Assembly (NCBI RefSeq): GCF_000214175.1
Contig: NC_015564.1
Coordinates: 2,418,001 to 2,482,000, forward strand
Reading direction: 5' to 3'
Length of the DNA stretch: 64,000 bases
DNA from: Hoyosella subflava DQS3-9A1
Lineage (GTDB): Bacteria; Actinomycetota; Actinomycetes; Mycobacteriales; Mycobacteriaceae
Of this stretch, positions 30,399 through 61,882 are shown one piece after another (positions within the stretch are counted from its first letter, which is position 1; every line of letters begins with the position of its first letter). Under the pieces are notes generated by a model. The model was not told where the DNA came from. It worked only from the letters and a program-made list of their open reading frames with translations, and did no database searches. A program made the translations under genes and the position numbers.

Positions 30399-30431
30399 CG
30401 TTTTGCTTTCGGTATGTTGGTGGCGATTCGT

Positions 30432-31352: not shown

Positions 31353-31400
31353 GGCAAATCTTCCTCAGGGTATGACGATTCGGCGTTCGCTGTACGCACG

Positions 31401-31427
31401 GTGAACGTGAACGTGAACGTGAACGTG
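31401..31427. repeat. Tandem hexanucleotide repeat (GTGAAC x4)
   Basis: Four perfect copies of GTGAAC (31401-31424) plus a half copy lie between the TetR stop and the acyltransferase start (GTTCAC on the coding strand). The surrounding 31353-31458 has no gene. It may be a slippage-prone microsatellite in a leader, or a stack of regulator half-sites. Confidence 0.8.
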
Positions 31428-31458
31428 GTGGTGTGACTGCGTTGTGCAGTTCCGGCCG

Positions 31459-32136: not shown

Positions 32137-32158
32137 GGAATCTCCTGCGTAGGGCTAG

Positions 32159-32199
32159 CTGTGTATACAGATTAGCGCTTTGTGTGTAACACGTACACA
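32159..32199. promoter_or_regulatory. Two palindromes before tetR, candidate TetR operator
   Basis: TGTATACA (32162-32169) is a perfect 8-base palindrome inside CTGTGTATACAG. TGTGTA (32183-32188) and TACACA (32194-32199) form a perfect inverted repeat with a 5-base spacer. Both lie in the AT-rich 82-base gap upstream of the TetR start at 32136. A TetR dimer site of 15-17 bases is typical, so the second element is the better candidate. Confidence 0.5.
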
Positions 32200-32218
32200 G
32201 TTATCACTATATGTGTAT

Positions 32219-34647: not shown

Positions 34648-34744
34648 GTCCTCGCATTTAGCTCGTCGGTAGTGGGACTGAAATCAAGAATATGAAGGTC
34701 AGATCGAAGGAAACAGGTGATAATTGGCCCAAGAGTTACTAGAT

Positions 34745-35821
34745 ATGGCCACTCTGAAGGGGCCACGCGATCGGGAGGTACCTGCAGTGATCCGGCAAGC
34801 GATACCGCGCTCGCCGGCGAGCGCGGCATTGCTCATTGAGTTCGCGCAGGCCCGCGGCGTTGCACTCGCGACGTGCCTTAAAGGTACGAGACTCACGATG
34901 AGTGCCCTGAGGAACCCCGCCACTGAGGTGACCGCCCAGCAGGAACTACGGCTCATTGCAAACACCGTTAAGGCCCTCGACTACGAGCCCGGTCTGGGAA
35001 TCGAGGTAGGCCACCAGTACCACCTGACAACCTATGGAATCTGGGGTTTCGCACTCATCAGCAGCCCAACACTGCGCAACGCCATCGACGTCGGCTTACG
35101 TTTCGTCGGACTGACATTTGCGTTCTGCCGAATCACCGCGCGTCTGCATGACGACGAAGTATGGCTAGTTCTCGACCCCAATGAGGTTCCGGTTGCGGTG
35201 CGCAGATTCGTCACCGAGCGGGACAGCGCTGCGATAAAGAACCTCCAGCAGGAACTGGTCGGACAGTCCGTCCCGCTCCGGCGGGTGACGTACACCTTCC
35301 CCGCACCCATCGACGGCATCGAGCGCTACACCGAAATACTCGGCACTGCACCCGTGTTCGGCGCGGACGAGAACACACTCGTTATCGATCCGGCCTACCT
35401 CGATGAGCCACTGACGCAAGCGAACGAATACGCGAGAGCACTCGCACAGTCTCAATGCCGTGACTTGCTCAACCAGCGTGAAGCGCGCGCAGGCTTGTCC
35501 GGTCAGGTACGGGACCTGTTGCTCGCGGATCCAACCCAGCCACTCACACTCGAAGAGGCTGCACGCGAACTGCACATGAGCAGTCGAACAGTGCGCCGAC
35601 TACTCGCGGCAGAAGGAACCTCGTTGCGCGCGTTGACCAATGAGATTCGGGAAGGACTTGCCGAGGAACTCCTGATCACCGGACGCATGCCGGTCGCCGA
35701 CGTCGCACACCGGCTCGGCTACACGGAAGTATCGAGTTTCTCGCAGGCATTCCGGCGGTGGAAGGGACTCGGGCCGCGCGAGTACCGGGCGCAGGTGAGC
35801 ACGGGAGCAATTTCCCGCTAG
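34745..35821 (+). CDS. virS: AraC-family regulator, VirS-like
   Basis: About 358 residues. The N-terminal half is an Arabinose_bd-type domain (YHLTTYGIWGFALISSPTLRNAI). The C-terminal AraC helix-turn-helix pair (about 255-350) has LTLEEAARELHMSSRTVRRLLAAEG and VADVAHRLGYTEVSSFSQAFRRWKGLGPREYR. The ATG at 34745 has AAGAG upstream; a TTG at 34724 with AGGTGA is an alternative. It is divergent from the mymA-lipR-like genes across about 100 bases, the arrangement of virS in mycobacteria, so it should activate them. Confidence 0.88.
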   Translation: MATLKGPRDREVPAVIRQAIPRSPASAALLIEFAQARGVALATCLKGTRLTMSALRNPATEVTAQQELRLIANTVKALDYEPGLGIEVGHQYHLTTYGIWGFALISSPTLRNAIDVGLRFVGLTFAFCRITARLHDDEVWLVLDPNEVPVAVRRFVTERDSAAIKNLQQELVGQSVPLRRVTYTFPAPIDGIERYTEILGTAPVFGADENTLVIDPAYLDEPLTQANEYARALAQSQCRDLLNQREARAGLSGQVRDLLLADPTQPLTLEEAARELHMSSRTVRRLLAAEGTSLRALTNEIREGLAEELLITGRMPVADVAHRLGYTEVSSFSQAFRRWKGLGPREYRAQVSTGAISR

Positions 35822-35829: not shown

Positions 35830-37125
35830 TCAATCCACAACCCTGTCTCTGAGCCAATGGCACAGCAGCAGGGCAACCTCGACATCGAGCCGATCGTCGC
35901 TGATCTCGCGGCCACGGCGCTCCAACGCCCGCCGAACCCGATATCTGACGGTGTTGGGGTGCATGTGCAGCTCCTCTGCCGCGCTCTTATAACCCGAGTC
36001 GGCCCGCAGGAAAGCACGCAGCGTCTCCCGCAATCTCTCGTCGCTTTCCGTAGGCGACGCAAGCGGACCGAGAACTTCACCCACCCAAGAGCGTGTCGCG
36101 TCAGCGTTCTCGGCAAGCAGGCCCGACAACAACACGCCACATTCGCTGGCATCGGTCACCCGCTGTTCCTGCTGTCCCGTTGCGTGTGCGACCGTGCGGG
36201 CTAACTGCGCCTGCTGATGCGAACGACGGAAACCGTCCAGCCCGTGGAGCGGCTGCCCAATTGCAACGAAAGGGGCTTGCGGCGTCGCATCAACCGCGTC
36301 GCGGACCGCTTGCTGCACAGTTGCTCTTGCTGCCGCAGTCACCGGAACCCACACCCACCCCGTGAGCCGGTCGGCGGCGACAAAGAGCGGGGACTCAGGG
36401 CCGGCCACCCCACTTTCGTGGAGTTTGTGCACGAACCTTTCGATGGCCGTGAGTTCGCCCCCTCCCTGCTGATCGTGACACCACACAACGATTGCCAGGT
36501 GAACCCTTCGCAATGGATAACTGATTGCCGATGTCAGGACATCAAGATCAGCATCGGTATCAGTGTCACCACCCGCGAGCAGTTCACGCACGCGCGACGA
36601 GCGCAGGCTGTTGCGGCTCGCCTGCCAGCGATCACGCTCATCCTGATACACCCGAATCAATTGCTGCGAGATCCAGTCGATGTATCTGAACGTGAGCGCG
36701 GTGATTCGTTCGATGACGTCGAGAATTAGCGGGGAGTCGAAATCACAGCCGCGGATCTCCTCCATCACAACGTTCAGCACCGTTTGGTGACCGATGCGGT
36801 AGGCCCTGATCAGTGCGTCAGCAGACACGTCACGTTGGGCAAGTCTGCGTGCATATTCAAGCGCGGTTGTTGGCGGCTCGATGTGGTCGAGGGAAATGTC
36901 ATTGCGGATCGCCGCGAAAACGGTATCGATATTCGCTGCAACGGTGTCATGGAGCAGCTGTTGGAGCTGAGCATCATCCCGCAACTCCGAGATTTCCCGC
37001 ATCAGAGTGTCCTGCGTGGAGCGTGTTATCGCACCCAACTGGTCATCGAGCCGCGTGATGATTGCCGCCGCGGAGTCAGCGACGACGGCACGGTAGTCAC
37101 CGTCTTCCCGGTCGTCGCGCGTCAT
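35830..37125 (-). CDS. PucR/CdaR-type transcriptional regulator
   Basis: A 431-residue regulator. The N-terminal RsbT co-antagonist/RsbR-like helical region (about 20-180) includes ALIRAYRIGHQTVLNVVMEEI, a GGDEF-like linker domain follows, and the C-terminal PucR helix-turn-helix is LRETLRAFLRADSGYKSAAEELHMHPNTVRYRV. It converges tail to tail with the virS-like gene (8 bases apart). It is divergent from the P450-reductase-Rieske operon across 162 bases, which contain the palindrome GGAATTCC at 37169-37176 and repeated GCGGAGC words. It is the probable regulator of that operon. Confidence 0.88.
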   Translation of the reverse strand: MTRDDREDGDYRAVVADSAAAIITRLDDQLGAITRSTQDTLMREISELRDDAQLQQLLHDTVAANIDTVFAAIRNDISLDHIEPPTTALEYARRLAQRDVSADALIRAYRIGHQTVLNVVMEEIRGCDFDSPLILDVIERITALTFRYIDWISQQLIRVYQDERDRWQASRNSLRSSRVRELLAGGDTDTDADLDVLTSAISYPLRRVHLAIVVWCHDQQGGGELTAIERFVHKLHESGVAGPESPLFVAADRLTGWVWVPVTAAARATVQQAVRDAVDATPQAPFVAIGQPLHGLDGFRRSHQQAQLARTVAHATGQQEQRVTDASECGVLLSGLLAENADATRSWVGEVLGPLASPTESDERLRETLRAFLRADSGYKSAAEELHMHPNTVRYRVRRALERRGREISDDRLDVEVALLLCHWLRDRVVD

Positions 37126-37287
37126 GTGCGGAGCGTAATTAAGCGGAGCTTGTGCCGGGAGTCATTCGGGAATTCCAGCTTGTATCGAGCCTACAAAGGC
37201 TGCACGAAAGTTGGTATCGCCGTGACATCGGCACATCAATTCTCGCTCCGTAGCGTGATTTACACCCAACCGACAAAGCGAGAGACT

Positions 37288-38526
37288 ATGACCTCAACAG
37301 CCCCAAATGACCTTGACAGCATCGACCTCGCAGACTCCACAGTGTGGGATGGCGGGCCGCCCTACGAGTTGTTCAAGCGACTCCAGCGCGAAGACCCGGT
37401 TCATTTCAGCGCGCAGCGCTCAGCACCCGGCGAAGGCGGCTTTTGGTCAATCACTCGGTACGATGACGTGCGGTCAGTGAGCCGCGACCATAAGACGTTC
37501 TCGTCGGAAAAACGCGGAATATTCCATTTCGACGATATTGGCGTCCCACTCGATATTCAGCGACTGCAGATGATCTCGATGGATCCCCCGCGCCACGACC
37601 GTTTGAAAGCACTTGTCATCAAAGCGTTTACGCCGCAGCGAGTGGCCGAACACGAAGATCACATCCGCCAGATCATCGGACGGGTTCTCGACAGCGTAGC
37701 TGACCGGGAGAGATTCGACCTCGTTGCTGATGTGGCGCGACCAATCCCGGCCCGCGTCATCGGCTCTTTCCTCGGTACTCCGCCCGAAGACGATGCGACG
37801 CTGGTGCATTGGACCAATGTGTTCACCGCGTTCGAAGACCCCGCGATCCGCGATCAATGGTCCGACACCGCGGGCGTGGTCACCGAGATCATCGAATACG
37901 TCAATGGACTCATCGCACAGCGCCGCGAACACCCTCAGAACGACTTGCTGTCAGCGCTTATGGACGCTGAAGTCGACGGCGAAAAGCTCAACGAACTCGA
38001 GCTCGCAACGTTCTTCATTCTGCTGATGTCAGCCGGTAACGACTCCACCCGGGCTACCTACAGTGCGACGATGCTTGAACTGCTGCGCAACCCGGAAATG
38101 CTCGCGCAACTCCGTGAACAGCCCGAACTAATCGAGGCGGCAGTCGAAGAGGGGCTTCGCTGCTATCCAGCTTTCGCCTTCATGGCCCGCGCAGCGACCC
38201 GCGACGTCGAAATGCACGGCAAAACGATCAAGGAAGGCGACCGCGTCCTGCTCTGGTATCTGGCGTCGAACCGCGACGAAACCGCGTTCGAGAATCCAGA
38301 TCAGTTCGACATCACACGGCCCGGCCTCGCCGACAAGCATCAGGCCTTCGGCGGGCGTGGACGCCACTTCTGCCTCGGCGCCAACCTCGCTCGCCTGGAA
38401 CTGCGACTGTGGATCGAGCAGACATTGCAGCGCTTCCCCAATCTCGAACTCGACGGCGAACCGACCCGTGTCCGGGCCTTGTTCCTCAACCAGTACAACT
38501 CGATTCCAGTGCGGCGGACATCATGA
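37288..38526 (+). CDS. Cytochrome P450
   Basis: A 412-residue soluble P450. The I-helix oxygen-activation motif AGNDST is at 249-254, the K-helix ExxR spans Glu288-Arg291, and the haem-binding loop FGGRGRHFCLGANLA has ligand Cys362. The open frame runs about 500 bases further upstream, but MTSTAPNDLD at 37288 is the natural P450 start and lies clear of the divergent pucR gene. The stop overlaps the reductase start (ATGA). It hydroxylates an unknown substrate, with electrons probably from the co-encoded VanB-type reductase. Confidence 0.95.
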   Translation: MTSTAPNDLDSIDLADSTVWDGGPPYELFKRLQREDPVHFSAQRSAPGEGGFWSITRYDDVRSVSRDHKTFSSEKRGIFHFDDIGVPLDIQRLQMISMDPPRHDRLKALVIKAFTPQRVAEHEDHIRQIIGRVLDSVADRERFDLVADVARPIPARVIGSFLGTPPEDDATLVHWTNVFTAFEDPAIRDQWSDTAGVVTEIIEYVNGLIAQRREHPQNDLLSALMDAEVDGEKLNELELATFFILLMSAGNDSTRATYSATMLELLRNPEMLAQLREQPELIEAAVEEGLRCYPAFAFMARAATRDVEMHGKTIKEGDRVLLWYLASNRDETAFENPDQFDITRPGLADKHQAFGGRGRHFCLGANLARLELRLWIEQTLQRFPNLELDGEPTRVRALFLNQYNSIPVRRTS

Positions 38527-39524
38527 CCGCCCCGGAACTCCTCGTCGAGTCGCCCCAGCGCAACAGGGGCACCTATCGGGAAGTTGAACTTGACCTTCAG
38601 GTACGAAAACGTGAGCGCGTTGCGGAGGGCGTTGTAGTACTTACCCTCGCCGACCCTGCGGGCGCTGACTTGCCTGAATGGACACCTGGCGCGCACATCG
38701 ACCTGATGATGACACCGACGCTCATACGCCAGTATTCGCTCTGTGGGGATACCTCCAACAGCGCCGAGTGGAAAGTCGGCGTGCTGCTCGATCCGGCCAG
38801 CCGCGGAGGTTCACAGTTCGTCCACGACAAACTGCATGAGGGAGCCACCGTTCGCGTTCGCGGCCCGCGTAACCACTTTCCGATGGTGCAAGCGGCTCGG
38901 TATAAGTTCATTGCCGGCGGGATTGGCATCACCCCGATCTACACGATGATCGCCGCTGCCGCAGCGACCAACGCTGACTGGCAGCTGCTGTATGGCGGCA
39001 GAACACGGTCGTCGATGGCTTTCCTTGACGTCCTGGAAGACCACGGCGACCGGGTCTCGGTGTGTCCCCAGGACGAGACAGGGATGCTTGACCTTGCTGC
39101 GGAACTCTCCGCGCCTGACGAAGACACCGTTGTGTACTGCTGTGGTCCTGAAGGACTTCTCAGCGCAGTTGAACAGGCCTGCACGAGCTGGCCTACCGGG
39201 AGCCTGCACATCGAGAGGTTTGCTGCGAAGGCGTTCGAGCCTTCCGTCGGCGGAGACAGCGCTTTTGAGGTCGAGTGCCAGCGGTCCGGCGTGAGTGTGA
39301 CTGTGCCGCCGGACAAGACGATCTACGAAGCGGTCGAGGAAGCGGGCGTCGACGTCCTCGGTTCCTGCATGGAAGGCGTTTGTGGCACCTGCGAATGCGA
39401 TGTCATCGAAGGCGAGCCCGACCCTCGTGACTCCGTACTGTCGGAGGCGGAGCGGGAAAGTGGAGCCACAATCATGATCTGCGTTTCGCGATCCAGGTCC
39501 GAAAGGCTGGTGCTGGACCTATGA
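38523..39524 (+). CDS. Phthalate-dioxygenase-reductase-type (VanB-like) ferredoxin reductase
   Basis: A 333-residue single-chain reductase. The flavin-binding motif is RQYSLCGD at 69-76 (FMN type), the NAD(P)H domain starts FIAGGIGITPI, and the C-terminal plant-type [2Fe-2S] domain has Cys282, Cys287, Cys290 and a final Cys in MICVSR. This order (flavin, NAD, ferredoxin) is that of VanB/OphA1. The ATG at 38523 overlaps the P450 stop and the end overlaps the Rieske start, so all three are coupled. It could serve both the P450 and the Rieske oxygenase. Confidence 0.93.
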   Translation: MTAPELLVESPQRNRGTYREVELDLQVRKRERVAEGVVVLTLADPAGADLPEWTPGAHIDLMMTPTLIRQYSLCGDTSNSAEWKVGVLLDPASRGGSQFVHDKLHEGATVRVRGPRNHFPMVQAARYKFIAGGIGITPIYTMIAAAAATNADWQLLYGGRTRSSMAFLDVLEDHGDRVSVCPQDETGMLDLAAELSAPDEDTVVYCCGPEGLLSAVEQACTSWPTGSLHIERFAAKAFEPSVGGDSAFEVECQRSGVSVTVPPDKTIYEAVEEAGVDVLGSCMEGVCGTCECDVIEGEPDPRDSVLSEAERESGATIMICVSRSRSERLVLDL

Positions 39525-40546
39525 GAACCAACTATCCATTCAACTGCTGGTACATCGCCGCAGCGAGCGAGGAGATAAAAACCGGGCTGTTCACTCGGCG
39601 GGTGCTTGACCAGCCGGTCGTGATGTTCCGTCGAGGCACAGGTGAAGTCGTCGCAATGGAAGACCGCTGCCTACACCGGGCCTATCCTCTCTCGAAGGGC
39701 AGAATCGAGGACGATCGCATCGTATGCGGCTACCACGGCTGCACATACGACGCTGGTGGTCGCCTCGTGGATGTGCCATCTCAAGGTAACGTCCCGCCAG
39801 GAGCTCGAGTGCGGACCTACCCGATCCACGAGAAATCGGGGTTCGTGTGGCTTTGGCTCGGTGAGCCTGCGGCTGCTCGTCTCCGGCCGCCGCCACGAAT
39901 CCCGTGGTCCGCGGAAGAAGATGGATGGGGGAAGTCGCTTGAGGTGTCCAGCGTGCGGGCAAACTACCTGCTGCTCCACGAGCACTACCTCGACCTGACC
40001 AACGTGTTCCACATGTACCCCGAAGCAGCACCACCAGATATCCACACACTTCCGCCGTTAAATGAAGTGGAAGTCTCCGAACTGTCGGTGTCCTACTCTC
40101 GTCAGACGGTCCCCACCCGCCCGGCGTCGTGGGAGATGGACGTGGCGGGGCTCGCGGCGGATACGAAGCTGCCCCGGGTCGAGGAAGGGATCTTCGTCTC
40201 CCCCGCGCTACACGTTCAGCGCTACATCGTCGGTCCAGATGGGGAGAAACCCTACGTTCTGTTGCGAGTGCAAGGGTTCACGCCGGAAAGCCATGGCGCC
40301 ACCCACGTTTTCCTGCAGATCCAGCGCAACTACGCGATCACTGACGACAGTGTGACCGGGTATTTGCGGACCATGTTTCACGAGATGGGCAAACGTGATC
40401 AGGACGTCCTCGAAACAGTCCAGCAGCAATTGGATCAGGAGACCCGGCCGCACAGAGACCTCAACTTCAAGGCCGACCGGGCTGCGATCCGCGCACGCCG
40501 CATTGCGCAGCAGATGGTCGACGACGAGCGCTTCGTGCTCAGGTGA
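39521..40546 (+). CDS. Rieske-type oxygenase (VanA-like) with altered iron-ligand motif
   Basis: A 341-residue protein. The N-terminal Rieske centre is Cys50-x-His52 and Cys69-x2-His72, intact. The C-terminal catalytic domain has ANYLLLHEHYLDLTNVFHMY at about 147-166. In VanA/KshA-type enzymes this place reads D-x2-H-x4-H. Here the first histidine is Asn161, and the next histidine is at 164, two residues early. The nucleotides were re-read codon by codon and support this. Either the ligand set is shifted or the mononuclear iron site differs. It is the last gene of the P450 operon and overlaps the convergent pucR gene by 8 bases. Confidence 0.88.
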   Translation: MRTNYPFNCWYIAAASEEIKTGLFTRRVLDQPVVMFRRGTGEVVAMEDRCLHRAYPLSKGRIEDDRIVCGYHGCTYDAGGRLVDVPSQGNVPPGARVRTYPIHEKSGFVWLWLGEPAAARLRPPPRIPWSAEEDGWGKSLEVSSVRANYLLLHEHYLDLTNVFHMYPEAAPPDIHTLPPLNEVEVSELSVSYSRQTVPTRPASWEMDVAGLAADTKLPRVEEGIFVSPALHVQRYIVGPDGEKPYVLLRVQGFTPESHGATHVFLQIQRNYAITDDSVTGYLRTMFHEMGKRDQDVLETVQQQLDQETRPHRDLNFKADRAAIRARRIAQQMVDDERFVLR

Positions 40547-52626: not shown

Positions 52627-54705
52627 TCAGGTATCGAGGAGTTGGCGCTTGACGATCTTCCCGGCAGCGTTGCGCGGTAGAGCGTCGAGAAACTCGATGT
52701 CGCGCGGCACCTTGTAGCGCGCAAGTTGTGCGCGCACCAAATCTTTCACTTCGTCGGCAGAGAGTGTTTCGCCATCCCGCAGGACGACGAACGCACGCAA
52801 GCGCTGACCGAATTTGTCGTCGTCGACACCAACACACGCGGCTTCGGCGACGGACGCGTGACGGGCGATAACGTCTTCGACTTCTCGCGGATACACGTTC
52901 TCGCCGCCGGAAACGATCATTTCGTCGTCACGGCCTACTACGAACAGACGGCCCGCCTCGTCGAATCGTCCGAGATCACCTGTCGCCATGAGGCCACCGA
53001 TACGTTCCTTGTCACCGCCACCCGTGTAGCCCTCGAAAAGGTGTGCGTTGCCGACGTAGATGCGACCGGTCTCGCCTTGCCGCACTTCCTTGCCGGACTG
53101 GTCGAAGAGCCGCACAGTCGTGCCGCGGGTCGGTCGTCCAGCGGTGCCCGGCGCCGTGCGCAGATCCTGCGGGGTGGCGATCGTGGCGTTGGCAACCTCG
53201 GTAGAGCCGTAAAGGTTGTACAGGTTGTCGCCGAAGGAATCCATCCACCGAGTAGCGAGGTCACCCGCCAGCGCGGAGCCCGAGACCGCCACCACTTCGA
53301 GGGACGACGTGTCATATTTGTCGCGAACGTCCTTCGGAAGATCGAGGATGCGCTGCAGCATCACCGGGATCGCTATGAACGCTTCACATTTCGAGCGGTC
53401 GATCTCCGCGAGCCACTCCTCGGCACTGAACCTGCGCAGCATCACCACCGATGCGCCCAGCCCCAGCGCCATCACCAGGTTCGCGAGACCCCACGCGTGG
53501 AAGGCCGGCGCAGCCAGACCGATTCGCATCCCCGCGCGAAGCGGGATACGGCCGAGAAGCGCCGCCGGCGCCTCCAGGGTGAGAGTGCCGCCAGCTGCGA
53601 CGGCACCACGGGTGGCGCCTTTCGGAGTCCCGGTTGTCCCGGAAGTCAGGATGGTGAGCTTCCCCGACCGATTGGGGACCGGCGGACGACGGCCATGGTA
53701 TTCGACGGCGAACGATGCCAGGCTGGGCGCATCACCATCAGGATCCGCGTCGCTGAAGACCCGCAGCATATGCATGGGACTATCCCCCATCAGCGCGTGG
53801 AATTCCGTGTCGTAGATAACCGCGGACACGGCCTCCCGCGTTGTCACCTCCCGCAATTGGGGCCCCGAAAACTCAGTGTTCAGCAGCAGAACATCAGCGC
53901 CGACCTTGGCCACGGCCGTCGCGGCCTCAAGGAAACCTCGGTGATTGCGCGCAAGCACGCCGACCGTGTCGCTCTCAGTGACACCGTGCAGCGCAAGACC
54001 GCTCGCGATTGCGTTGCTGCGCTCGTCCACCTCAGCGTAGGTTTGGGTGCCGAATTCGTCGACAATTAGTGGCGCGCCGCCGCTGCGGATCGCCCCCGCC
54101 GCGACCGCTGTCCCTAGGCTCAGCCCCCACGTCCGCGCTGCCCACGCGAGCCGGAATAGCGTATCTGGTCTCATCGGCCGCACAATCCCCCTGCGCGCCA
54201 GCACACCGGCATAGGTAAGTTCCCGAATGGCGCGGCGGGGCAGCGAGGGTGGCGCTGGTTGTGGCGCCGTCCTATGTTCGACCTCGAGCTTCGCAGCCTC
54301 GAGCGCATTGGTGAACATCGAGTGCACCTTGGGGTATGCAGCGAGATCCGCGACAGTCCCCAGCACACCGGGGGCATCATAGGAGAAACGCAGTGTCAGC
54401 GCTGTGCGGCCATTGCTGAGAGGCCGGAATCGCAGGCGCAGGCGATGATCGACGCCGGTGAACGCGTTCCAGGCGAATTCGCGGGCGGGCGTGAAGTCGA
54501 CGATAATGATGTCGCCGCCTACCAGTGCGGCGCCCAGCTTCAGATGAATCCGGTAACGCCCATCAAGTGCTGGCTTCTGTCCTTCTTCTGCGGGCGTCAC
54601 GGTCATGGCGGAGCCGACGAAGCCTGCGAGCTGCGCAGGGTCCGCGCAGGCTTCCCACACCGCTTCGGGTGGCGCATCGACTTCGATTCTTTGTTCGAAC
54701 TTCAT
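52627..54705 (-). CDS. SRPBCC-acyl-CoA synthetase fusion protein
   Basis: A 692-residue two-domain protein. Residues about 1-145 are a CoxG/SRPBCC-like domain (FEQRIEVDAPPEAVWEACADPAQLAGFV, ending in a long helix). Residues about 180-690 are an AMP-forming ligase with LTILTSGTTGTPKGATRG, the NLYGSTEVANATI adenylate motif, GRDDEMIVSGGENVYPREVED and the catalytic Lys in PRNAAGKIVKRQL. The SRPBCC part may bind the hydrophobic acid or acyl-CoA. It activates a carboxylic acid, perhaps from the upstream BVMO/esterase route. The start overlaps the acyltransferase stop by 4 bases. Confidence 0.9.
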   Translation of the reverse strand: MKFEQRIEVDAPPEAVWEACADPAQLAGFVGSAMTVTPAEEGQKPALDGRYRIHLKLGAALVGGDIIIVDFTPAREFAWNAFTGVDHRLRLRFRPLSNGRTALTLRFSYDAPGVLGTVADLAAYPKVHSMFTNALEAAKLEVEHRTAPQPAPPSLPRRAIRELTYAGVLARRGIVRPMRPDTLFRLAWAARTWGLSLGTAVAAGAIRSGGAPLIVDEFGTQTYAEVDERSNAIASGLALHGVTESDTVGVLARNHRGFLEAATAVAKVGADVLLLNTEFSGPQLREVTTREAVSAVIYDTEFHALMGDSPMHMLRVFSDADPDGDAPSLASFAVEYHGRRPPVPNRSGKLTILTSGTTGTPKGATRGAVAAGGTLTLEAPAALLGRIPLRAGMRIGLAAPAFHAWGLANLVMALGLGASVVMLRRFSAEEWLAEIDRSKCEAFIAIPVMLQRILDLPKDVRDKYDTSSLEVVAVSGSALAGDLATRWMDSFGDNLYNLYGSTEVANATIATPQDLRTAPGTAGRPTRGTTVRLFDQSGKEVRQGETGRIYVGNAHLFEGYTGGGDKERIGGLMATGDLGRFDEAGRLFVVGRDDEMIVSGGENVYPREVEDVIARHASVAEAACVGVDDDKFGQRLRAFVVLRDGETLSADEVKDLVRAQLARYKVPRDIEFLDALPRNAAGKIVKRQLLDT

Positions 54706-55604
54706 CCGATCACCGGTAACTTCCGCTCGATCTGCAGGGCGGTCAGCACGTCCTGCATGCGCGCCAGAACATCTTCATAGACCTCGTCCCAGTCTGGGGC
54801 CTCGCCATACTCGGCGCGAAGATCAATAGGTTCCAGATACTGGATGACGATTTTTGACGGCAGTGGCACAAATGGCGCGAAAGGCGGCGTGAGCCCGTAG
54901 GGAACCGACACCATGATGGGGATGGTTTTGAGCCGGAAGATCCGGTCAACGCGCAGCAATCGAGCGAGCCACTCCCCCCGGGAAAGAAACAGCGCGGTCT
55001 CTTGGCCACCAATCGTCACCTGCGGAACAATAGGAACGTTGTGTTTGTACGCGAGACGCAGGAAGCCTTTCCGGCCGCCGAAGTCCACTTTCGCTGATTC
55101 CCAGCTCGGTCTGAACACCTCGTAGTCACCGCCCGGGAAGACTTGCAGCACAGCTCCTTCGGAGAGGGCCAGGTCAGCATTGGCGGGATCCGCCTCAACT
55201 GTGCCGAACCGGCGAAGAATCCACGCGAACGGTGAGTTCAGCACCAATCTGTGGGCGAGTTGATAGAACGGCCGTTGCGTACCGAGGTACGACGAAATAG
55301 CGAGCTGGGAGATGAACACTTCGGGTGACTGCAGACCGCCGGTATGGTTGCCGACGATCAGCGCTGGGCCCTTCCCCGGTAGATGGTGTAAACCCCGCAC
55401 GTCGGGACGGAACCACAGGCTCATCAGCAACCACAGTCCGGGGAGAAGTTCGCGGATCGAATCCGGATCGCGTGCCTCTAAGTCCCCTGGCCGGAACCGC
55501 GGCATCAGCCCCGAGAGAGGCCGGGTAAACGTTCCGGTAGCCCCCTGCGTCAGAGCCCGCACGGTACTGAGCATCTGCCCAGCTACGCTCTCGCCGAAAG
55601 CCAT
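54702..55604 (-). CDS. Lysophospholipid acyltransferase (PlsC-like) family protein
   Basis: About 300 residues. Motif I is VGNHTGGLQSPE, where the HX4D aspartate is replaced by Gln. FPGGDYEVFRPSWESAKVDFGGRKGFLRLA is the FPxG block, and VPIVPQVTIGGQET is motif IV. It is a paralogue in type of the gene at 30432-31352. The ATG at 55604 has GAGGAG upstream; the frame extends further without a ribosome site. It may acylate glycerolipids with acyl-CoA supplied by the fused synthetase downstream. Confidence 0.86.
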   Translation of the reverse strand: MAFGESVAGQMLSTVRALTQGATGTFTRPLSGLMPRFRPGDLEARDPDSIRELLPGLWLLMSLWFRPDVRGLHHLPGKGPALIVGNHTGGLQSPEVFISQLAISSYLGTQRPFYQLAHRLVLNSPFAWILRRFGTVEADPANADLALSEGAVLQVFPGGDYEVFRPSWESAKVDFGGRKGFLRLAYKHNVPIVPQVTIGGQETALFLSRGEWLARLLRVDRIFRLKTIPIMVSVPYGLTPPFAPFVPLPSKIVIQYLEPIDLRAEYGEAPDWDEVYEDVLARMQDVLTALQIERKLPVIG

Positions 55605-55656
55605 CGCGCTCCTCGATTCGATTAGTGCACGTCCCGGGGTGCCGGTGCGCCCAAGT

Positions 55657-56418
55657 CTAGGGCGGGGGCTGGGCGGGAGGGCGAGAGTTCGACGAAGCAG
55701 CACCGTCGAAGTACTGGTCCAATCCCTGCTTGAGGTTGTGATCGACGGCTCGAGCCAGCAGGATGTGAACCGACTGCACCGCCACATTCTCAAGCCGCGT
55801 GATGGCGTCGATCGTGCGGCCCACATCCTCTGTGCGTTCTGGTGTGTCAGTTCTGCGCTGCTGATTTTCGATCAGATCCAGTCCCGCCCTGATCATGATC
55901 TGGGCGATCTGGTCGACGTGCTCGGTCACGGCACCCATGACGTCGATCAGCGGGCGCAGTTCAAACCCGAAGTCGCGCAGTTCGAGGAACGCTTCGACCA
56001 GTTGTGTTTCGGCGAACACGGCATTGTCGTTGTTGATCGAGACCATGCCCATCTCGATGAGTTTGTCTAAGAGTTCTCGATCGCGCGCTCCGAGGAATGC
56101 TTCGATTCCGTGCAGAGGCACCTCGAGTGTCTGATCGCGGGACCACGTCGCGGTGGTGGCGCTGGGCAGCCCGAGGATCTCAGCGAGACTCTTGCCGCTC
56201 TCCCACCCCGCGATGAAGTCCACTATGTGCGCGCTGGTGAAACCTCGCTGGAGCAGCGTGTCAATGAGCTTCAGCCGCTCCAGGTGTGACTCATCGTAGA
56301 AGTTTGTGCGGCCACGACGCTGCGGTTCGTGCAACAGGCCGCGTTCCCGATAGGCACGAATATTGCGGGTGGTGGTGTTGGCGGCCTGTGCAAGGTCATC
56401 GATCCTGTACTCCGCCAT
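55657..56418 (-). CDS. MerR family transcriptional regulator
   Basis: A 253-residue regulator. The N-terminal MerR winged helix (about 1-70) is YRIDDLAQAANTTTRNIRAYRERGLLHEPQRRGRTNFYDESHLERLKLID. A long C-terminal helical effector domain (about 75-250) lacks the cysteines of metal sensors, so a small organic ligand is more likely. It lies in the middle of the co-directional BVMO/diiron gene run and is the best candidate for its control, including the inverted repeat at 60761-60786. Confidence 0.9.
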   Translation of the reverse strand: MAEYRIDDLAQAANTTTRNIRAYRERGLLHEPQRRGRTNFYDESHLERLKLIDTLLQRGFTSAHIVDFIAGWESGKSLAEILGLPSATTATWSRDQTLEVPLHGIEAFLGARDRELLDKLIEMGMVSINNDNAVFAETQLVEAFLELRDFGFELRPLIDVMGAVTEHVDQIAQIMIRAGLDLIENQQRRTDTPERTEDVGRTIDAITRLENVAVQSVHILLARAVDHNLKQGLDQYFDGAASSNSRPPAQPPP

Positions 56419-56461
56419 CCGAAGCTGGTCCTCCCGCGCACGGTCGCATGAAAGTGGTGAT

Positions 56462-57949
56462 TTACCTTCTTTCTACCAGGCGTGGCTGAGCAACTGCGTC
56501 GAAGTCAGCCATATCTACGGCGCGGAGCTGGTGGGCGAACTCAGTGGCGAATCCCGGGAACATAGTGGCGTTGAATTTGTCTTCCGTGAGATACCAACTG
56601 GAGCAGCCAGAATTCCATGTGGTTCGGCGGAGGCGCCGCTGCAGCCGGGCGTTGTATGTGTCTTGCCGATCTCTGCGAACATCGAGCATCGTGAGATCAC
56701 GCTCCACGATGATTCTGACCGCTTCGGTGATGTAGTCGATCTGTGCCTCCATGTAGACCAGCGCTGAGTTGTGGCCTGGCCCCGAATTGGGGCCGAATGT
56801 GAAGAACAGGTTGGGATATCCAGACACAGCGACGCTCTTGTGGGCATACGCGCCGCGGCTCCACTCGTCGGCAAGCACTTTCCCGCCGCGGCCTCTGATG
56901 GGAATGGGTGTCCCCGTTTTCGACACATCGAATCCGGTCGCGAAAACGATGCAGTCGAATTGGTGCTCGATGCCTTCTGCTGTGCGAATTCCCTTCGGTG
57001 AGATCCGCACGATAGGCCAGGTCACCAGCTTGCAGTTGGTGCGCTGCAACGCTGGATAGTAGTCGCTGGTCATCAGCAGCCGCTTGCATCCCGCGCGAAA
57101 ATCCGGCGTCAATTGACGTCTGAGCCAGGGATCTTTCACCTGTGCTCGCAACTGTGCCTGACCGACAAGCTCAACCGCGCGGGTAAGTGGCGTCTTCCAG
57201 ACAACACCAAGCGCAACGGTCTCGTGCCCCCAGAACCAGGCTTGCCGTGCGGCTGACTGTACGGCGGGCAGCTGGCGGTACAGCGCCTTCGTTGCACCGC
57301 TGGTCCGGCGGTTCACACGTGGGAGAACCCAGCCAGGCGTTCGCTGGAAAACCTTCACCGATTCCGCGTTTTTCACCAGTTCAGGAACGATCTGAACGGC
57401 GCTGGCCCCGGTGCCGACGACAGCAACTTTCTTGTCTGCGAAATCGTAGCCATGATCCCAGCGCGCACTATGAACCTTGTGGCCTTCATAGGTTTCAATG
57501 CCGGGAATGTTGGGGAAGCTGCAGTTGGACAACGGACCCGAAGCAACCACTACGGCGCGGGCGTGCAGGGCTGGCTGGCCTTCTACAGCGACGGTCCACA
57601 GGCCGGCTGTCTCATCGAAGTCGAGCGAAGTGACGTTGTGGCGGAATCGGATTGAAGGTTCCAGGTCATACTCACGCACCATGTGTTCGATGTAGGTGAG
57701 GATCTCTTCGCTTCCTGAGTAGGTGTGCGACCAGTCCGGGTTTGGCGCGAAGCTGTAGGAGTAGAGCCGTGACGGGATATCGCAGGCGGCGCCAGGGTAC
57801 GTGTTGTCGCGCCACGTGCCTCCCACCGCAGTGCCCCGCTCGAGAATCACGAAGTTGTGGATACCTTTATGCCGCAGCCGAATCGCTGCACCGAGTCCGG
57901 CAAAACCAGCGCCTACTATCGCCACGTCGAGTGGCGGTGGGGCGCTCAC
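56462..57949 (-). CDS. Baeyer-Villiger-type flavin monooxygenase (second copy type)
   Basis: About 495 residues. The FAD motif VAIVGAGFAGLG is at about 9-20. The BVMO fingerprint reads Y-E-G-H-K-V-H-S-A-R-W (154-164), i.e. F-x-G-x3-H-x3-W with Phe changed to Tyr. The NADPH motif is VAVVGTGASAVQ. The GTG at 57949 overlaps the stop of the diiron gene (GTGA), replacing a longer frame start. It is similar in type to the MymA-like protein at 33133-34647. It would convert a ketone to an ester, with the SDR and esterase genes nearby on the same strand. Confidence 0.9.
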   Translation of the reverse strand: MSAPPPLDVAIVGAGFAGLGAAIRLRHKGIHNFVILERGTAVGGTWRDNTYPGAACDIPSRLYSYSFAPNPDWSHTYSGSEEILTYIEHMVREYDLEPSIRFRHNVTSLDFDETAGLWTVAVEGQPALHARAVVVASGPLSNCSFPNIPGIETYEGHKVHSARWDHGYDFADKKVAVVGTGASAVQIVPELVKNAESVKVFQRTPGWVLPRVNRRTSGATKALYRQLPAVQSAARQAWFWGHETVALGVVWKTPLTRAVELVGQAQLRAQVKDPWLRRQLTPDFRAGCKRLLMTSDYYPALQRTNCKLVTWPIVRISPKGIRTAEGIEHQFDCIVFATGFDVSKTGTPIPIRGRGGKVLADEWSRGAYAHKSVAVSGYPNLFFTFGPNSGPGHNSALVYMEAQIDYITEAVRIIVERDLTMLDVRRDRQDTYNARLQRRLRRTTWNSGCSSWYLTEDKFNATMFPGFATEFAHQLRAVDMADFDAVAQPRLVERR

Positions 57950-58866
57950 GCGGCGGCCTCGTACGTGAGTTCCTTCGACCACGCAGGCTGGGGCCGGAGG
58001 AGTCGCCTCGGATAACGGGCAGTGAGCTTCACCATCGTGTCCGCAAACAGGTGGTACGGGTGGTTACGGTCGATCACCATCGCCGCATGCACCTTGATGA
58101 TCTGATACATCGGTAGCCGTCGCGAGTACGCGCTGCGGTCCCCGGCCGCCTTGAATCTCTTGAGCGCGGCGTAAAGCCGGTCTTCGTCCACCCCCATCGC
58201 GACGATGTTGTCACGCATTTTGTTCAGCAGAGGCACGTAACTGAGCGCACCGACGATGAGCGACGGTTTCAGCCAGCCACCGACGAGGTCAATGGCCATT
58301 TTTCGTGTTGTCGCGTGTCCGAGAAGGTCCATCACGGCAAAATCCACAGCGAGATGCCGAGATTCGTCAGCATTGATCTTCCGGAATACGTCCTGACAAA
58401 CGGGATCTTTGATCTCGTCAACGATGAACTTCACCAGCGCACCATCGAGCGCGACTTCTAGCATCGGGATTACGGTGCCGAGGAACGAGAGGGACATGCC
58501 GTCGGAGTACTTGTCGAGCCAGTCGATGACCAGCTTGACATTGATGTTGGGTTCGGGAACTTCGTCGCCGTCCAGCATGCCCCAGCGGCGCATCAGTGCG
58601 AGCTCGGCGTTAGCGTGGCGCTGCTCCTCGGCGTGGAAGTACCGGTAGATCTCTTTCAGAGTGTCAGTTGGTGCTTTTTTCGCCATTGCGGCGAACCCTC
58701 GTGCGCCAACATTTTCGATCCACACAAGGTCAGCCATGAATGGTTTGAGCCGTGCATGCAGGTCGGGACTTACGGTCTCCACGCCGGGAGCATCCCAGTC
58801 GATGTCAGCGAGTGACCATTGGCGTGCCTTGATCTTGGTAAGCATCTGATCGAAGTCGAAGGACAT
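57946..58866 (-). CDS. Ferritin-like diiron protein, probable oxygenase
   Basis: About 306 residues. A complete four-helix diiron ligand set is seen: Glu51 (LVWIENVGARG), Glu81-x2-His84 (HAEEQRHANAE), Glu137 (IPMLEVALDG) and Glu168-x2-His171 (NADESRHLAVDF). This E...ExxH...E...ExxH pattern fits ferritin-like oxygenases (AurF-like or fatty-acid desaturase-like) rather than iron storage. The ATG at 58866 has AGGAG 7 bases upstream. It overlaps the BVMO gene and follows the SDR by one base. A 2Fe-2S reductase is divergently encoded. Exact family and substrate: not recognised. Confidence 0.8.
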   Translation of the reverse strand: MSFDFDQMLTKIKARQWSLADIDWDAPGVETVSPDLHARLKPFMADLVWIENVGARGFAAMAKKAPTDTLKEIYRYFHAEEQRHANAELALMRRWGMLDGDEVPEPNINVKLVIDWLDKYSDGMSLSFLGTVIPMLEVALDGALVKFIVDEIKDPVCQDVFRKINADESRHLAVDFAVMDLLGHATTRKMAIDLVGGWLKPSLIVGALSYVPLLNKMRDNIVAMGVDEDRLYAALKRFKAAGDRSAYSRRLPMYQIIKVHAAMVIDRNHPYHLFADTMVKLTARYPRRLLRPQPAWSKELTYEAAA

Positions 58867-58867
58867 G

Positions 58868-59737
58868 TCAGGCTCCTGTCGTTTCACGTACGGGTGGTTG
58901 CGCCTGCTCGCGCGGAAGGGTTCTGTTCATCAGCCCGAGCGCCCAGGTGTACTGCCGGGGCAGGTGGCGCTTGAGATGCCAGAGGGCATGTGCATCGAGT
59001 TGGGGCAGGACGTATAAACGCCCTTTGTCGTGGGCGTCGAGTGTCATGCGCGCGACTCGTGCGGGTGAGTGTCCTGTCCATTTCATGAGGAAGTCAGCGA
59101 GCCTGAAGGACTGAGCGGTGATCCGCCCGTCGCGGGCGACGTTGGTTTTGACGAAGGTCGGGCATAGCACCGAAACGGTGATTCCCGTTCCGTTGAGTTC
59201 GGCGGCAATCGTCTCCGAGAGCGATACCACCGCTGCTTTGGAGACGTTGTAGGGAGCCATCAGTGGCGCGGCTGCGAATCCCGCAGCGGACGCCACGTTG
59301 ATGATTCCGGCCGGTTGTGTCCGCCGCAGCTGCGGCATGAACAGTTCGCAGCCGTAGACGACTCCCCAAAGGTTTATGCCTAAGGCCCACTCCCAGTCGG
59401 TGAAGCCGATCTCGCCGACCGGTCTGCCACCGATTCCGACACCCGCATTGTTGACGACCAGCGTGGCTGGACCGCGGAAAACGGTTTCGGCGTGTGCGGC
59501 GAGGTTCTCAACGTCTCCGCGAACCGAGACGTCACAGAAGTACGAGTGGGCTGCGCCGGGGTATTTCGCGTTGATTTCCTGTGCAGCCTTATCTGCCCGG
59601 TCACGGTCGACGTCCGCGCAAATCACGTCGCCGCCTCTACGGGCGAGTTCAATGGCGATGCTCCGCCCGATGCCGCTGCCCGCACCTGTGACCACGGCGC
59701 GTGCGCCGTACGAAGGCTTTGTCCTGTGCTGGTTCAT
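58868..59737 (-). CDS. Short-chain dehydrogenase/reductase (SadH-like)
   Basis: A 289-residue SDR. The cofactor motif is TGAGSGIG near residue 18-25, followed by CADVDRDRA (an Asp suggesting NAD). The NNAGVGIGG motif and catalytic Ser plus Y-x3-K (APYNVSKAAV) are present. The C-terminal 60 residues with DAHDKGRLYVLPQLDA resemble the SadH/secondary-alcohol type of mycobacteria. It would interconvert a secondary alcohol and a ketone, feeding the BVMO. Two bases separate it from the esterase upstream, and one base from the diiron gene. Confidence 0.9.
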   Translation of the reverse strand: MNQHRTKPSYGARAVVTGAGSGIGRSIAIELARRGGDVICADVDRDRADKAAQEINAKYPGAAHSYFCDVSVRGDVENLAAHAETVFRGPATLVVNNAGVGIGGRPVGEIGFTDWEWALGINLWGVVYGCELFMPQLRRTQPAGIINVASAAGFAAAPLMAPYNVSKAAVVSLSETIAAELNGTGITVSVLCPTFVKTNVARDGRITAQSFRLADFLMKWTGHSPARVARMTLDAHDKGRLYVLPQLDAHALWHLKRHLPRQYTWALGLMNRTLPREQAQPPVRETTGA

Positions 59738-59739
59738 AA

Positions 59740-60741
59740 TTAGCCTGCCTGCTCAGTTAGGGACAGGTCGCGGGAGGACCAAGCTCTGGTGATGAACTGC
59801 CCCGCGCGGCGCAGAGCTGGCCGTGCCTCCGGAACGAGGCGCGGCAGCGCCTGGAAAACGTGCATCTGACCGGGCCAGATCTCCAGTTCGCAACTGCCCC
59901 CGGCCTGGGTGACGAGGGCACGGAGGTATTCGGCATCGGCGCTGAGCATCTCTTCCCCACCTGCTTGCACCAGCAGTGGCGGCAGCGCGGTTCCGGCAGC
60001 GAGACCGAGCTTTAGTCGTGGATGATCCGCGGGGTGCCTGCCCGTGTAGAGGGATACCAGCTTTCGTGCATTTTCGGCGCTGATCATCGGATCTCTGCGA
60101 GTTCGTTCCTTGGCTTCAGCAAGAGAAAGCGAGAGATCCATTAGTGGCGAGAACAGCACCGCCGCGGAAGGCTGCGGTGTTTGGGTGCGCGCGTTTTCTA
60201 TGAACAAGTCAACCGCCAAGTGACCGCCGGCCGAGTCCCCCGCGACCACTATCTGGTCGCTCACGTAGCCCTGCCCGAGGAGCCACCGATAGGCCGTCTC
60301 GATGTCCTGTGCGGCGGCAGGGAACGGATGTTCTGGCGCCAGCCGGTAGTCGACAGTGAAAACAGGCGCACCAGATGCCTGCGAAAGCCTCGATGCGATT
60401 CCGCGGTGCGTACGGGCTGAGCACACCACATAACCACTGCCGTGGATGTAGAAGATCGCCCGATCGGACTGTGTGACACCTGGCCCTCGTACCCACTCCC
60501 CCCGGACTGCGCCGGACCTGACCTGTTCGACGCGCGTACCACGCAGGGGCGGTCCGAGCACCCCCATCGAGACGGACACTAGCTGTCGTGCGAACCACAC
60601 ACCGGGGTTGTTGAGCGGAACCACATTTGTCAAATTACGCAGCACACAACGTGTTCCAGTTGCCGCTGCCCGCGAACGCCATGATGCCCGCCGGGGCACA
60701 GCGCGAAGCGGGGATCTCGTCGACGTTGACTGATCTACCAT
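59740..60741 (-). CDS. Alpha/beta hydrolase, LipR-like carboxylesterase
   Basis: About 333 residues. The oxyanion motif is YIHGSGYVVCS (HGSG variant of HGGG). VDYRLAPEHPFPAAAQD is the HSL class mark, the nucleophile elbow is VAGDSAGGHLAV, EEML supplies an acid, and the histidine is in WPGQMHVFQ. It resembles LipR-type esterases of mymA operons. The start at 60741 or 60747 is supported by position just after the divergent inverted repeat; the frame extends further. First gene of the minus-strand run, it could cleave the ester made by the BVMO. Confidence 0.86.
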   Translation of the reverse strand: MVDQSTSTRSPLRAVPRRASWRSRAAATGTRCVLRNLTNVVPLNNPGVWFARQLVSVSMGVLGPPLRGTRVEQVRSGAVRGEWVRGPGVTQSDRAIFYIHGSGYVVCSARTHRGIASRLSQASGAPVFTVDYRLAPEHPFPAAAQDIETAYRWLLGQGYVSDQIVVAGDSAGGHLAVDLFIENARTQTPQPSAAVLFSPLMDLSLSLAEAKERTRRDPMISAENARKLVSLYTGRHPADHPRLKLGLAAGTALPPLLVQAGGEEMLSADAEYLRALVTQAGGSCELEIWPGQMHVFQALPRLVPEARPALRRAGQFITRAWSSRDLSLTEQAG

Positions 60742-60760
60742 GCACATAGCATCATTCACT

Positions 60761-60786
60761 ATTGTGCCAGTTGTCAATGGCACAAT
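60761..60786. promoter_or_regulatory. Perfect inverted repeat in the divergent esterase/reductase promoter
   Basis: ATTGTGCCA (60761-60769) and TGGCACAAT (60778-60786) are perfect 9-base arms with an 8-base spacer. They lie about 20 bases from the esterase start and 50 bases before the reductase start. On the minus strand TTGACA is embedded here and may be a -35. One site could control both directions; the MerR protein encoded at 55657-56418 is a candidate binder. Confidence 0.65.
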
Positions 60787-60835
60787 GGAACAAGGTAAGA
60801 AGTCGTCTCGGCAAGTTCTAGAAGGAGCCACGAGG

Positions 60836-61882
60836 ATGCCGCCCCGATATCAGCTCACCATCACCGAAGTGGTGCGCGAAACGCCCGATGCAGCCACCCT
60901 CGTGTTCGAACCACCGCCGTCTGGTGCACCGCTCGTTTACCAACCCGGACAGTTCCTTACAGTTCGCGTTCCAGACAGCGGCGCCGGATCGGTCGGTCGC
61001 TGCTACTCGCTGTGCAGTTCACCCGCTACAGACGCGCGGCCAGCTATAACAGTGAAGCGCGTGTCAGGCGGGACTGCGTCTAATTGGTTGTGTGACAACG
61101 CTATTCCTGGATTGGTGCTCGATTGCCTAGCACCCCGCGGAACATTCACGCCGCAGGACTGGGATCGGAATTTCCTTCTGTTTGCGGCGGGAAGCGGCAT
61201 CACCCCGATCATGTCCATCCTCAAAACGGCACTACACGACCACGGCAACTCGCTCACTCTCGTCTATGCAAACCGAGATCACGAGTCGACGATCTTCGCT
61301 TCGCAGCTTGCAGAACTCGAACACAGACACCCCTCCCGATTCACGGTGTACTACATGCGGGAGTGTGAGTCTGGACTGCCCAATCCCGACGCCCTCGCAG
61401 CGAGGCTCACAAGCATCCCTGTCAACGATCGGCACGACGCCTACCTGTGCGGGCCTGAACCGTTCATGGACGCTGCTGCAGCAGCACTCCAAGTAAGCAA
61501 CATGGCCACCAGCCGCATCCACCGCGAGAAATTTCAGTCCCTGACTTCGAACCCATTTAGTTATGCCGACAGGGCATCCGAACCACGACCTGAAGAAAAG
61601 GATCTGTGCACAGTCCGCGCCACTGTTGACATCGCCGGTGACAGGCACGAACTCGAATGGCCCCGTGAGTCCCGATTACTTGATCTGCTATTGGACCAAG
61701 AGATTGACGCTCCCTACGCATGCCGTGAAGGTTCCTGCGGCGCCTGTGCATTCACCCTCATTAGCGGTGAGGTGAAGCTTCTTAGCAACGACACGCTCGA
61801 CAGTTACGAGTTGGAGCAAGGGGTACGCCTCGCCTGTCAATCAGTTCCCCTGACCGACGACGTTGAAATCGAATTCAACTAG
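60836..61882 (+). CDS. 2Fe-2S ferredoxin reductase, KshB-like
   Basis: About 348 residues. The FAD domain (RCYSLCSSPATD), the NAD domain (LFAAGSGITPIMSIL, LCGPEPFMDAA) and the C-terminal plant-type ferredoxin domain (CREGSCGACAFTLISG and a late Cys in LACQS) come in the order of KshB/PaaE-type reductases. The ATG at 60836 has AGAAGGAG 8 bases upstream; ATGs at 60785 and 60740 are alternatives. It is divergent from the esterase-SDR-diiron-BVMO run and is the likely electron donor to the diiron protein. It is clearly distinct from the two reductases at 38523 and 41861. Confidence 0.92.
   Translation: MPPRYQLTITEVVRETPDAATLVFEPPPSGAPLVYQPGQFLTVRVPDSGAGSVGRCYSLCSSPATDARPAITVKRVSGGTASNWLCDNAIPGLVLDCLAPRGTFTPQDWDRNFLLFAAGSGITPIMSILKTALHDHGNSLTLVYANRDHESTIFASQLAELEHRHPSRFTVYYMRECESGLPNPDALAARLTSIPVNDRHDAYLCGPEPFMDAAAAALQVSNMATSRIHREKFQSLTSNPFSYADRASEPRPEEKDLCTVRATVDIAGDRHELEWPRESRLLDLLLDQEIDAPYACREGSCGACAFTLISGEVKLLSNDTLDSYELEQGVRLACQSVPLTDDVEIEFN

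Follow-up and report, generated by a model that had tools for sequence, protein, structure and literature searches.

A conserved gene unit of Hoyosella subflava DQS3-9A1 that joins a ferritin-like diiron-type protein to a Baeyer-Villiger-type monooxygenase: a candidate oxidative chain-cutting route

Hoyosella (formerly Amycolicicoccus) subflava DQS3-9A1 is an oil-mud isolate that grows on C10–C36 alkanes and on propane, in which four types of alkane hydroxylase (AlkB, CYP153, LadA, and propane monooxygenase) have been reported; the main text of that report contains neither "Baeyer" nor "subterminal" (PMC3743902). Its genome consists of a chromosome of 4,738,809 bp and two plasmids of 17,897 and 106,784 bp (PMC3743902), which add up to 4,863,490 bp in three contigs. 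Here, we describe a group of genes encoding an esterase, a short-chain dehydrogenase/reductase (SDR), a ferritin-like diiron-type protein, a Baeyer-Villiger monooxygenase (BVMO)-type protein, and a MerR-family regulator, located in a stretch of 64,000 bp (NC_015564.1, positions 2,418,001 to 2,482,000; hereafter the window, to which coordinates refer). The original prediction had interpreted a longer run, which also included an acyltransferase, a CoA ligase fused to an SRPBCC domain, and a divergent 2Fe-2S reductase, as a complete subterminal oxidation pathway. The eight open reading frames (ORFs) of this run were all recovered with the domains assigned to them (Table 1).

Genes of the locus and conservation of the unit

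The likely start codons were judged from homologues and ribosome-binding sites. With these starts, the successive minus-strand genes, from the esterase to the SRPBCC-ligase, are separated by 2 bp, 1 bp, a 4-bp overlap, 43 bp, 52 bp, and a 4-bp overlap. The longest ORF of the reductase begins at 60740 and overlaps the longest ORF of the esterase, but the likely starts of both genes leave a divergent stretch of about 94 bp that contains a palindrome. No RNA elements or tRNAs were detected in the window at the thresholds used.

Table 1. Features of the conserved unit and of the genes adjoining it
Feature	Position	Strand	Remarks
Esterase, hormone-sensitive-lipase type (Abhydrolase_3, GDSAG)	59740..60741	-	start ~60741; longest ORF from 60831
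Short-chain dehydrogenase/reductase (SDR)	58868..59737	-	
Ferritin-like diiron-type protein, uncharacterized family	57946..58866	-	likely ligands E58, E88, H91, E144, E175, H178 (numbering from GTG at 58887)
Baeyer-Villiger-type FAD monooxygenase (FMO/BVMO)	56462..57949	-	motifs GGTWRDNTYPGAACD and YEGHKVHSARWD, the latter with Y replacing F of the strict fingerprint
MerR-family regulator	55657..56418	-	proposed binder of 60763-60784
Acyltransferase (PF01553)	54702..55604	-	adjoins the conserved unit, outside it
SRPBCC domain fused to FadD12-like CoA ligase (AMP-ligase)	52627..54705	-	adjoins the conserved unit, outside it
FAD/NAD (FNR) + 2Fe-2S reductase	60836..61882	+	candidate electron donor of the diiron protein
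Control-site-like palindrome TGTGCCATTGACAACTGGCACA	60763..60784	-	head of the unit, close to the esterase ATG

The conservation of this arrangement was evaluated in two sets of loci. A public genome scan yielded 545 confirmed stretches, of which the best 80 make up the named loci (62 from Nocardia and 18 from Hoyosella, Antrihabitans, Smaragdicoccus, Rhodococcoides, and Rhodococcus), and the 47 further loci partly overlap with them (e.g., L129 is on the same contig as L065). Ab initio gene calling was unreliable in high-GC loci, losing the diiron ORF in some of them; instead, neighbors were counted by tblastn at fixed positions, including only the loci with enough flank. In 80/80 named and 46/47 further loci, the diiron gene has a BVMO-like gene or fragment directly on its 3' side, and in 77/78 and 38/47, respectively, an SDR gene upstream. 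The esterase was present in 67/78 and 29/46 loci; the MerR gene was found downstream in 72/78 and 17/46, and at the divergent position in 0/77 and 7/45; the reductase occupied the divergent site in 13/77 and 12/45. The genome holds 21 FMO-like matches in 4.86 Mb, and the frequency of the diiron-BVMO adjacency places it above chance. Where a genome carries more than one diiron copy, as G017 (four copies) and G532 (three) do, a BVMO-like gene adjoins every copy mapped.

The conserved unit is therefore esterase-SDR-diiron-BVMO-MerR, with the divergent 2Fe-2S reductase in a subset, and it is smaller than the run originally put forward. A comparison of gene order across Mycobacteriales, which had been proposed as a check, upheld this order, and the view of the cluster as one functional set holds for the esterase, SDR, diiron, and BVMO-type genes, which are conserved together in several Mycobacteriales genera with a shared palindrome; it does not extend to the acyltransferase and the ligase. 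An acyltransferase gene was found beside the unit in only 1/77 named and 0/46 further loci, and a CoA ligase gene in 1/75 and 5/45; four of these five further ligases are 30–36% identical, and the fifth is closer to the other ligase of the window. Both genes adjoin the run in H. subflava and H. altamirensis (L039), whereas in Hoyosella sp. YIM 151337 (L065) they are not its neighbors. Moreover, the pair occurs without the diiron unit in G022 (90%/84% identical) and G010 (71%/59%), and neither genome gave a diiron match in the homologue search of genomes. The acyltransferase and the SRPBCC-ligase, whose SRPBCC domain is Polyketide_cyc2, thus behave as an independent two-gene module; we rejected them as parts of the pathway, and the claim that the cluster has its own CoA activation was not borne out.

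Diiron homologues were detected in 35 of 151 genomes, including that of strain DQS3-9A1 (in G036 the match is weak, 28%), and in 10 of 396 genomes drawn across the phylum; nine of these ten, DQS3-9A1 among them, belong to the same family, and G522 is related at phylum level only. The flanks vary among genera, which shows that the unit is more than a piece of a single frozen chromosomal segment. The diiron unit of G014 has neither SDR nor MerR. A diiron homologue was also found on 3 of 72,556 plasmid records. The copy on a Tsukamurella tyrosinosolvens plasmid is complete, with six genes (divergent reductase, alpha/beta hydrolase, SDR, diiron protein annotated as "reductase", FAD oxidoreductase, and MerR) and the palindrome with one mismatch. 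Distant copies on pMYCCH.01 of Mycolicibacterium chubuense NBB4 (L223) and pJCM15296 of M. aubagnense (L225) comprise SDR, diiron, three FAD oxidoreductase, alpha/beta hydrolase, P450, transglutaminase-like, and FadD genes, and no palindrome was found there at up to five mismatches. Acyl-CoA dehydrogenase and carboxylase genes are also near the copy of strain NBB4, a hydrocarbon degrader. These catabolic neighbors favor a role in breakdown over one in synthesis.

In four of the loci counted as having a BVMO (L152, L153, L157, and L172), the diiron gene is directly followed by a stand-alone BVMO piece of about 200 amino acids (residues ~161–348, in some up to 134–371); those at L157:10293-10922 and L172:10395-10976 are 34% identical to each other. 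A full BVMO-like gene is located beyond the fragment, on the same strand in three loci and on the opposite strand in L172. The fragment could possibly represent an accessory subunit, and the diiron protein may work in contact with that part of the BVMO. As a separate observation, PF10118 genes (L217:5523-6425 and L172:12494-13600) or genes annotated as "metal-dependent hydrolase" (L223:6321-7190 and L225:6354-7223) recur in the vicinity of a palindrome site or of distant diiron-BVMO loci.

The window BVMO contains the type I motif [AG]GxWx4[FY]P[GM]x3D, which is present in 79/79 named and 45/45 further loci having a long BVMO match, and the Rossmann motifs GAGFAG and GTGASA. The strict type I fingerprint is FxGx3Hx3W[PD] (PMC9044951), and the window protein deviates from it at the first residue. 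In the same loci this residue is F in 20/79 and 16/45, Y in 59/79 and 20/45, and neither in 0/79 and 9/45. Given this deviation, and the similarity of the protein to phenylacetone and steroid monooxygenases (E about 1e-75), we labeled it as BVMO-type. A screen for type I BVMOs covered 12 genomes, among them that of H. subflava, but its second motif demands F, and the window BVMO may hence have been passed over there (PMC9044951). The SDR glycine motif was found in 77/78 named and 37/39 further loci, and YxxxK in 78/78 and 39/39. The esterase bears HGSG in addition to GDSAG, as expected for the hormone-sensitive-lipase type; HGx[GAS] was found in 67/67 named and 37/37 further loci, and GxSxG in 46/67 and 35/37, the 23 misses retaining the serine as CDSAG or ADSAG. 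This replacement of the glycine before the elbow, with the serine kept, occurs in 21/67 named loci, for example, Nocardia L045, L051, and L097.

Among the NCBIfam models, the BVMO scored best with that of neopentalenolactone/pentalenolactone D synthase, although it remained far under the cut-off (202 vs 1100 bits). A cluster for natural-product tailoring could give such a match; however, no scaffold-making enzyme was found in the unit or in the scanned part of the flank genes, and the flanks vary among genera while the unit stays constant, which makes tailoring a very improbable function.

The palindrome at the head of the unit and the MerR-family regulator

The control-site-like palindrome at the head of the unit is 22 bp long, TGTGCCATTGACAAnTGGCACA. 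At up to three mismatches it occurs once in the window, compared with none in 100 shuffles, and a single site was found in the whole genome of the strain. A half-site score of at least 13/16 was obtained in 68 of 94 esterase-bearing loci, against 1 of 470 shuffles. With up to five mismatches allowed, 109 of 127 loci have the palindrome upstream of the diiron gene, 38 of them as an exact copy; it was missing in 15, and three had too little flank. In all 11 named loci without a found esterase, the palindrome precedes the SDR gene, that is, it remains at the head of the unit. Because these counts use a consensus derived from the same loci, a less circular check is the comparison with the reversed pattern: in 91 genomes, the palindrome gave 27 matches, spread over 21 genomes, and the reversed pattern gave 3. 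According to their coordinates, 19 of the 27 are at diiron units, 4 are near MerR, SDR, or esterase genes elsewhere or at contig ends, 1 is near a PF10118 gene, and 3 are unexplained (one in G034 and two in G018, neither of which is among the listed diiron matches). The extra sites in relatives led to MerR, SDR, or esterase genes and, in one case, to a PF10118 gene, and gave no clue about the substrate. In a literature search with the letters of the palindrome, the articles listed among the matches deal with other subjects, judging by their titles.

A MerR homologue was detected in 97/109 loci with the palindrome and in 1/15 without it (Fisher p 1.2e-10, from a hand tally in which relatedness is ignored). 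The palindrome is also present beside MerR genes that are distant from diiron genes: a second locus of G014 contains MerR, palindrome, and SDR, and a second locus of G041, whose main unit is without MerR, contains MerR, palindrome, and esterase. From this co-occurrence and these second loci, we propose that the MerR protein is the one that binds the palindrome. Within the palindrome there is a TTGACA hexamer (60777-60772), 18 bp before GATGCT (60753-60748), and the GATTCT/GATGCT element is just ahead of the ATG. This arrangement, judged by its conservation, suggests a leaderless promoter at the head of the unit; a generic promoter scan revealed promoter-like sites no more often than in shuffles.

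The diiron-type protein and its candidate electron donor

The six likely metal ligands of the diiron protein, which include the pairs E88-x2-H91 and E175-x2-H178, are invariant in 42/42 aligned homologues, down to 51% identity, and their spacing pattern is kept in 80/80 named and 47/47 further loci. All the Pfam matches of the protein are below the cut-off: AurF (PF11583; 23.4 bits vs 29.6) and rubrerythrin are sub-threshold, and no SDIMO family was matched. AurF was matched by 15/17 members of the family, none with an E value better than 3.7e-5. In AurF, a third histidine ligand is present four residues before the last glutamate; in the aligned homologues this extra histidine was not found, since the position four before E175 is I171, which is nearly invariant, and the adjacent N172 is invariant. 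Membership in the AurF N-oxygenases was rejected on the basis of the score and of this missing histidine.

By sequence, no natural solved relative was found: a profile search of solved structures gave a designed helical bundle, aligned over a short repeat (E 6e-8), and every other hit had an E value of at least 0.6. The AlphaFold2 model (pLDDT 83.5) contains only helices, and Foldseek gave weak matches to the R2-like ligand-binding oxidase (R2lox), R2, aldehyde-deformylating oxygenase, and CmlI, the best with an E value of 2e-3; with an earlier and poorer model (pLDDT 73.9), aldehyde-deformylating oxygenase was the top match (E 6.5e-4). The protein resembles R2lox, aldehyde-deformylating oxygenase, and CmlI/AurF in its helical ferritin-like fold and in its 4-Glu/2-His ligand type, but differs from them in the low identity of these fold matches (11–18%) and in the AurF features described above. 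It is best described as a member of an uncharacterized ferritin-like diiron-type family, in which the metal content is predicted.

Some of these results would also suit a role other than a first hydroxylation, such as an oxygenation of the aldehyde-deformylating oxygenase type, directed at aldehydes or esters, or an N-oxygenation, with the SDR, BVMO, and esterase degrading external or cell-made ketones and secondary alcohols. The top match of the poorer model and the weak AurF score point in this direction, as does the ligand spacing of 30/56/31, which resembles that of the aldehyde-deformylating oxygenase family. However, the AurF-type histidine was not found, the diiron and BVMO-like genes stay paired where the SDR is missing or elsewhere (L139, L148, L155, and L174), and the diiron gene of G078 has a reductase ORF immediately behind it. 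In view of these observations, we consider such a role unlikely.

The reductase has FAD, NAD, and C-terminal 2Fe-2S domains, as do the PaaE/KshB-type reductases, and its closest paralogue in the genome, 49% identical, adjoins a KshA-type Rieske gene, suggesting that it is of the oxygenase-reductase kind. It differs from that group in that its score with the PaaE model TIGR02160 is below the cut-off (228.7 vs 420.8 bits), which does not assign it to PaaE, and in that its neighbor is the diiron gene and not a Rieske oxygenase or paaABC. In G078, the diiron gene is followed 1 bp on by a reductase ORF (51% identical), with a four-mismatch palindrome 184 bp upstream; no SDR, BVMO, or esterase match was found for this diiron gene within the 19.9 kb examined. 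The pairing with a FAD/2Fe-2S reductase would resemble the SDIMO systems (propane and alkene monooxygenases), which consist of a diiron oxygenase and such a reductase; in contrast to them, no second hydroxylase subunit or coupling protein was found among the neighboring ORFs scanned here. Against this pairing, many relatives without the diiron gene have reductases of 43–50% identity. Two more reductase-like matches are located inside the window (C3:2456649 and C3:2460008).

A proposed chain-cutting route and its alternatives

On balance, we lean toward the idea that the unit and the divergent reductase constitute a regulated oxidative chain-cutting route that oxidizes, carries out a Baeyer-Villiger insertion, and hydrolyzes. 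The diiron protein, with electrons from the 2Fe-2S reductase, would oxygenate an aliphatic or alicyclic substrate at an unactivated carbon; the SDR would convert the resulting secondary alcohol into a ketone, the BVMO would insert oxygen to yield an ester or lactone, and the esterase would release from it an alcohol and an acid destined for beta-oxidation. The MerR protein, bound to the palindrome, would control the unit. This order of steps is the most parsimonious one according to general knowledge of the families, and the genes for a BVMO, an SDR (as secondary-alcohol dehydrogenase), and an esterase, which a subterminal route calls for, occur together in one conserved unit. The chemistry proposed here (secondary alcohol, ketone, and BVMO-made ester) is that of subterminal alkane oxidation with a BVMO, as shown by Rhodococcus erythropolis XP with BVMO_4041; in that case the BVMO was picked singly from the genome, and the words diiron, SDR, and esterase are absent from the text (PMC12724338).

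A more specific version of this proposal, which we advance with some doubt, is that the diiron protein and the KshB-like reductase form an undescribed two-component C-H hydroxylase. It would head a self-contained, plasmid-transferable unit that brings its own MerR switch and operator and is distinct from the alkane hydroxylases of the four types reported for the strain. The assertion that the diiron protein replaces the usual alkane hydroxylase is too strong; since four types have already been reported, it is more fitting to say that it adds a further candidate (PMC3743902).

Several observations weigh against the proposed route. No substrate is assigned to the unit, and its class is inferred. 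The diiron family is far from any characterized oxygenase, considering the identities given above and that no Foldseek match of the better model has an E value below 2e-3. Tblastn did not find the esterase in 11/78 named and 17/46 further loci. The palindrome is missing in 15/127 loci, mostly distant copies, and 12 loci have it without a MerR gene in the stretch examined; besides, a TTGACA near the center of the palindrome suits a repressor better than the classical layout of a MerR activator. The host already has four alkane hydroxylase types (PMC3743902). Finally, in 64/77 named and 33/45 further loci the divergent site is not occupied by the reductase, and the majority of these hosts would have to rely on a different electron donor; the assumption that the unit has its own reductase stands for a subset of genomes.

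The mymA operon comprises virS, the BVMO gene mymA, lipR, an SDR gene, adhD, tgs4, and fadD13. The unit resembles it in having a BVMO and a hormone-sensitive-lipase-type esterase, and the operon of Mycobacterium tuberculosis also includes SDR and FadD; in contrast, its regulator is of the AraC/VirS type instead of MerR, and it is not known to include a diiron protein or 2Fe-2S reductase. In the window, a VirS-type AraC gene is divergent from a different BVMO gene (33133-35821). The inclusion of the unit in the mymA type was rejected on the basis of regulator, gene content, and sequence identity.

mymA and ethA have been tied to lipid and mycolate metabolism (PMC9044951). This link, the shared content of BVMO and LipR-like esterase, the presence of a separate mymA-like cluster in the window, and the predominance of Nocardia among the named loci (62/80) would be consistent with a role of the unit in the modification or turnover of a cell-envelope lipid, the function proposed for the mymA operon; one example would be Baeyer-Villiger conversion of long-chain ketones. 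However, the two BVMOs of the window share only 39% identity and the two esterases 36%, and the regulators are AraC in the mymA-like cluster and MerR in the unit. Hoyosella is described as being without mycolic acids. Moreover, only 34 of 145 good-quality relatives have a diiron match, three plasmids carry homologues, and the distant copies are near catabolic genes. An envelope function thus seems improbable to us. Wax-ester mycolate metabolism in this host was also rejected, given that the genus is described as having no mycolates and that a literature search listed no article on such a gene by title or abstract.

BVMO-esterase-SDR sets are of an already known kind, and the new part is the diiron partner, the conserved unit, and the control site, of which we found no description in titles and abstracts, in a search with limited coverage of subscription papers. 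The initiating enzymes of subterminal oxidation are less known than the terminal hydroxylases, and the compact unit combines a candidate oxygenase encoded by one gene with a candidate reductase, a regulator, and a defined DNA site. If the chain-cutting route is correct, hydrocarbon breakdown and biocatalysis would gain a new oxygenase family, and the unit would supply a component for biosensors and serve as a marker of the route in genomes of Nocardia, Rhodococcus, Mycolicibacterium, and Tsukamurella.

The second, mymA-like BVMO cluster of the window (23800-35821) contains genes for an AraC-type regulator, a BVMO, an esterase, a TetR regulator, a DGAT-type acyltransferase, an aldehyde dehydrogenase, a GMC oxidoreductase, an acyl-CoA ligase, and a wax-ester synthase. 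Near it, at 36784-40546, cytochrome P450 and Rieske (VanA-type) oxygenase genes are located.

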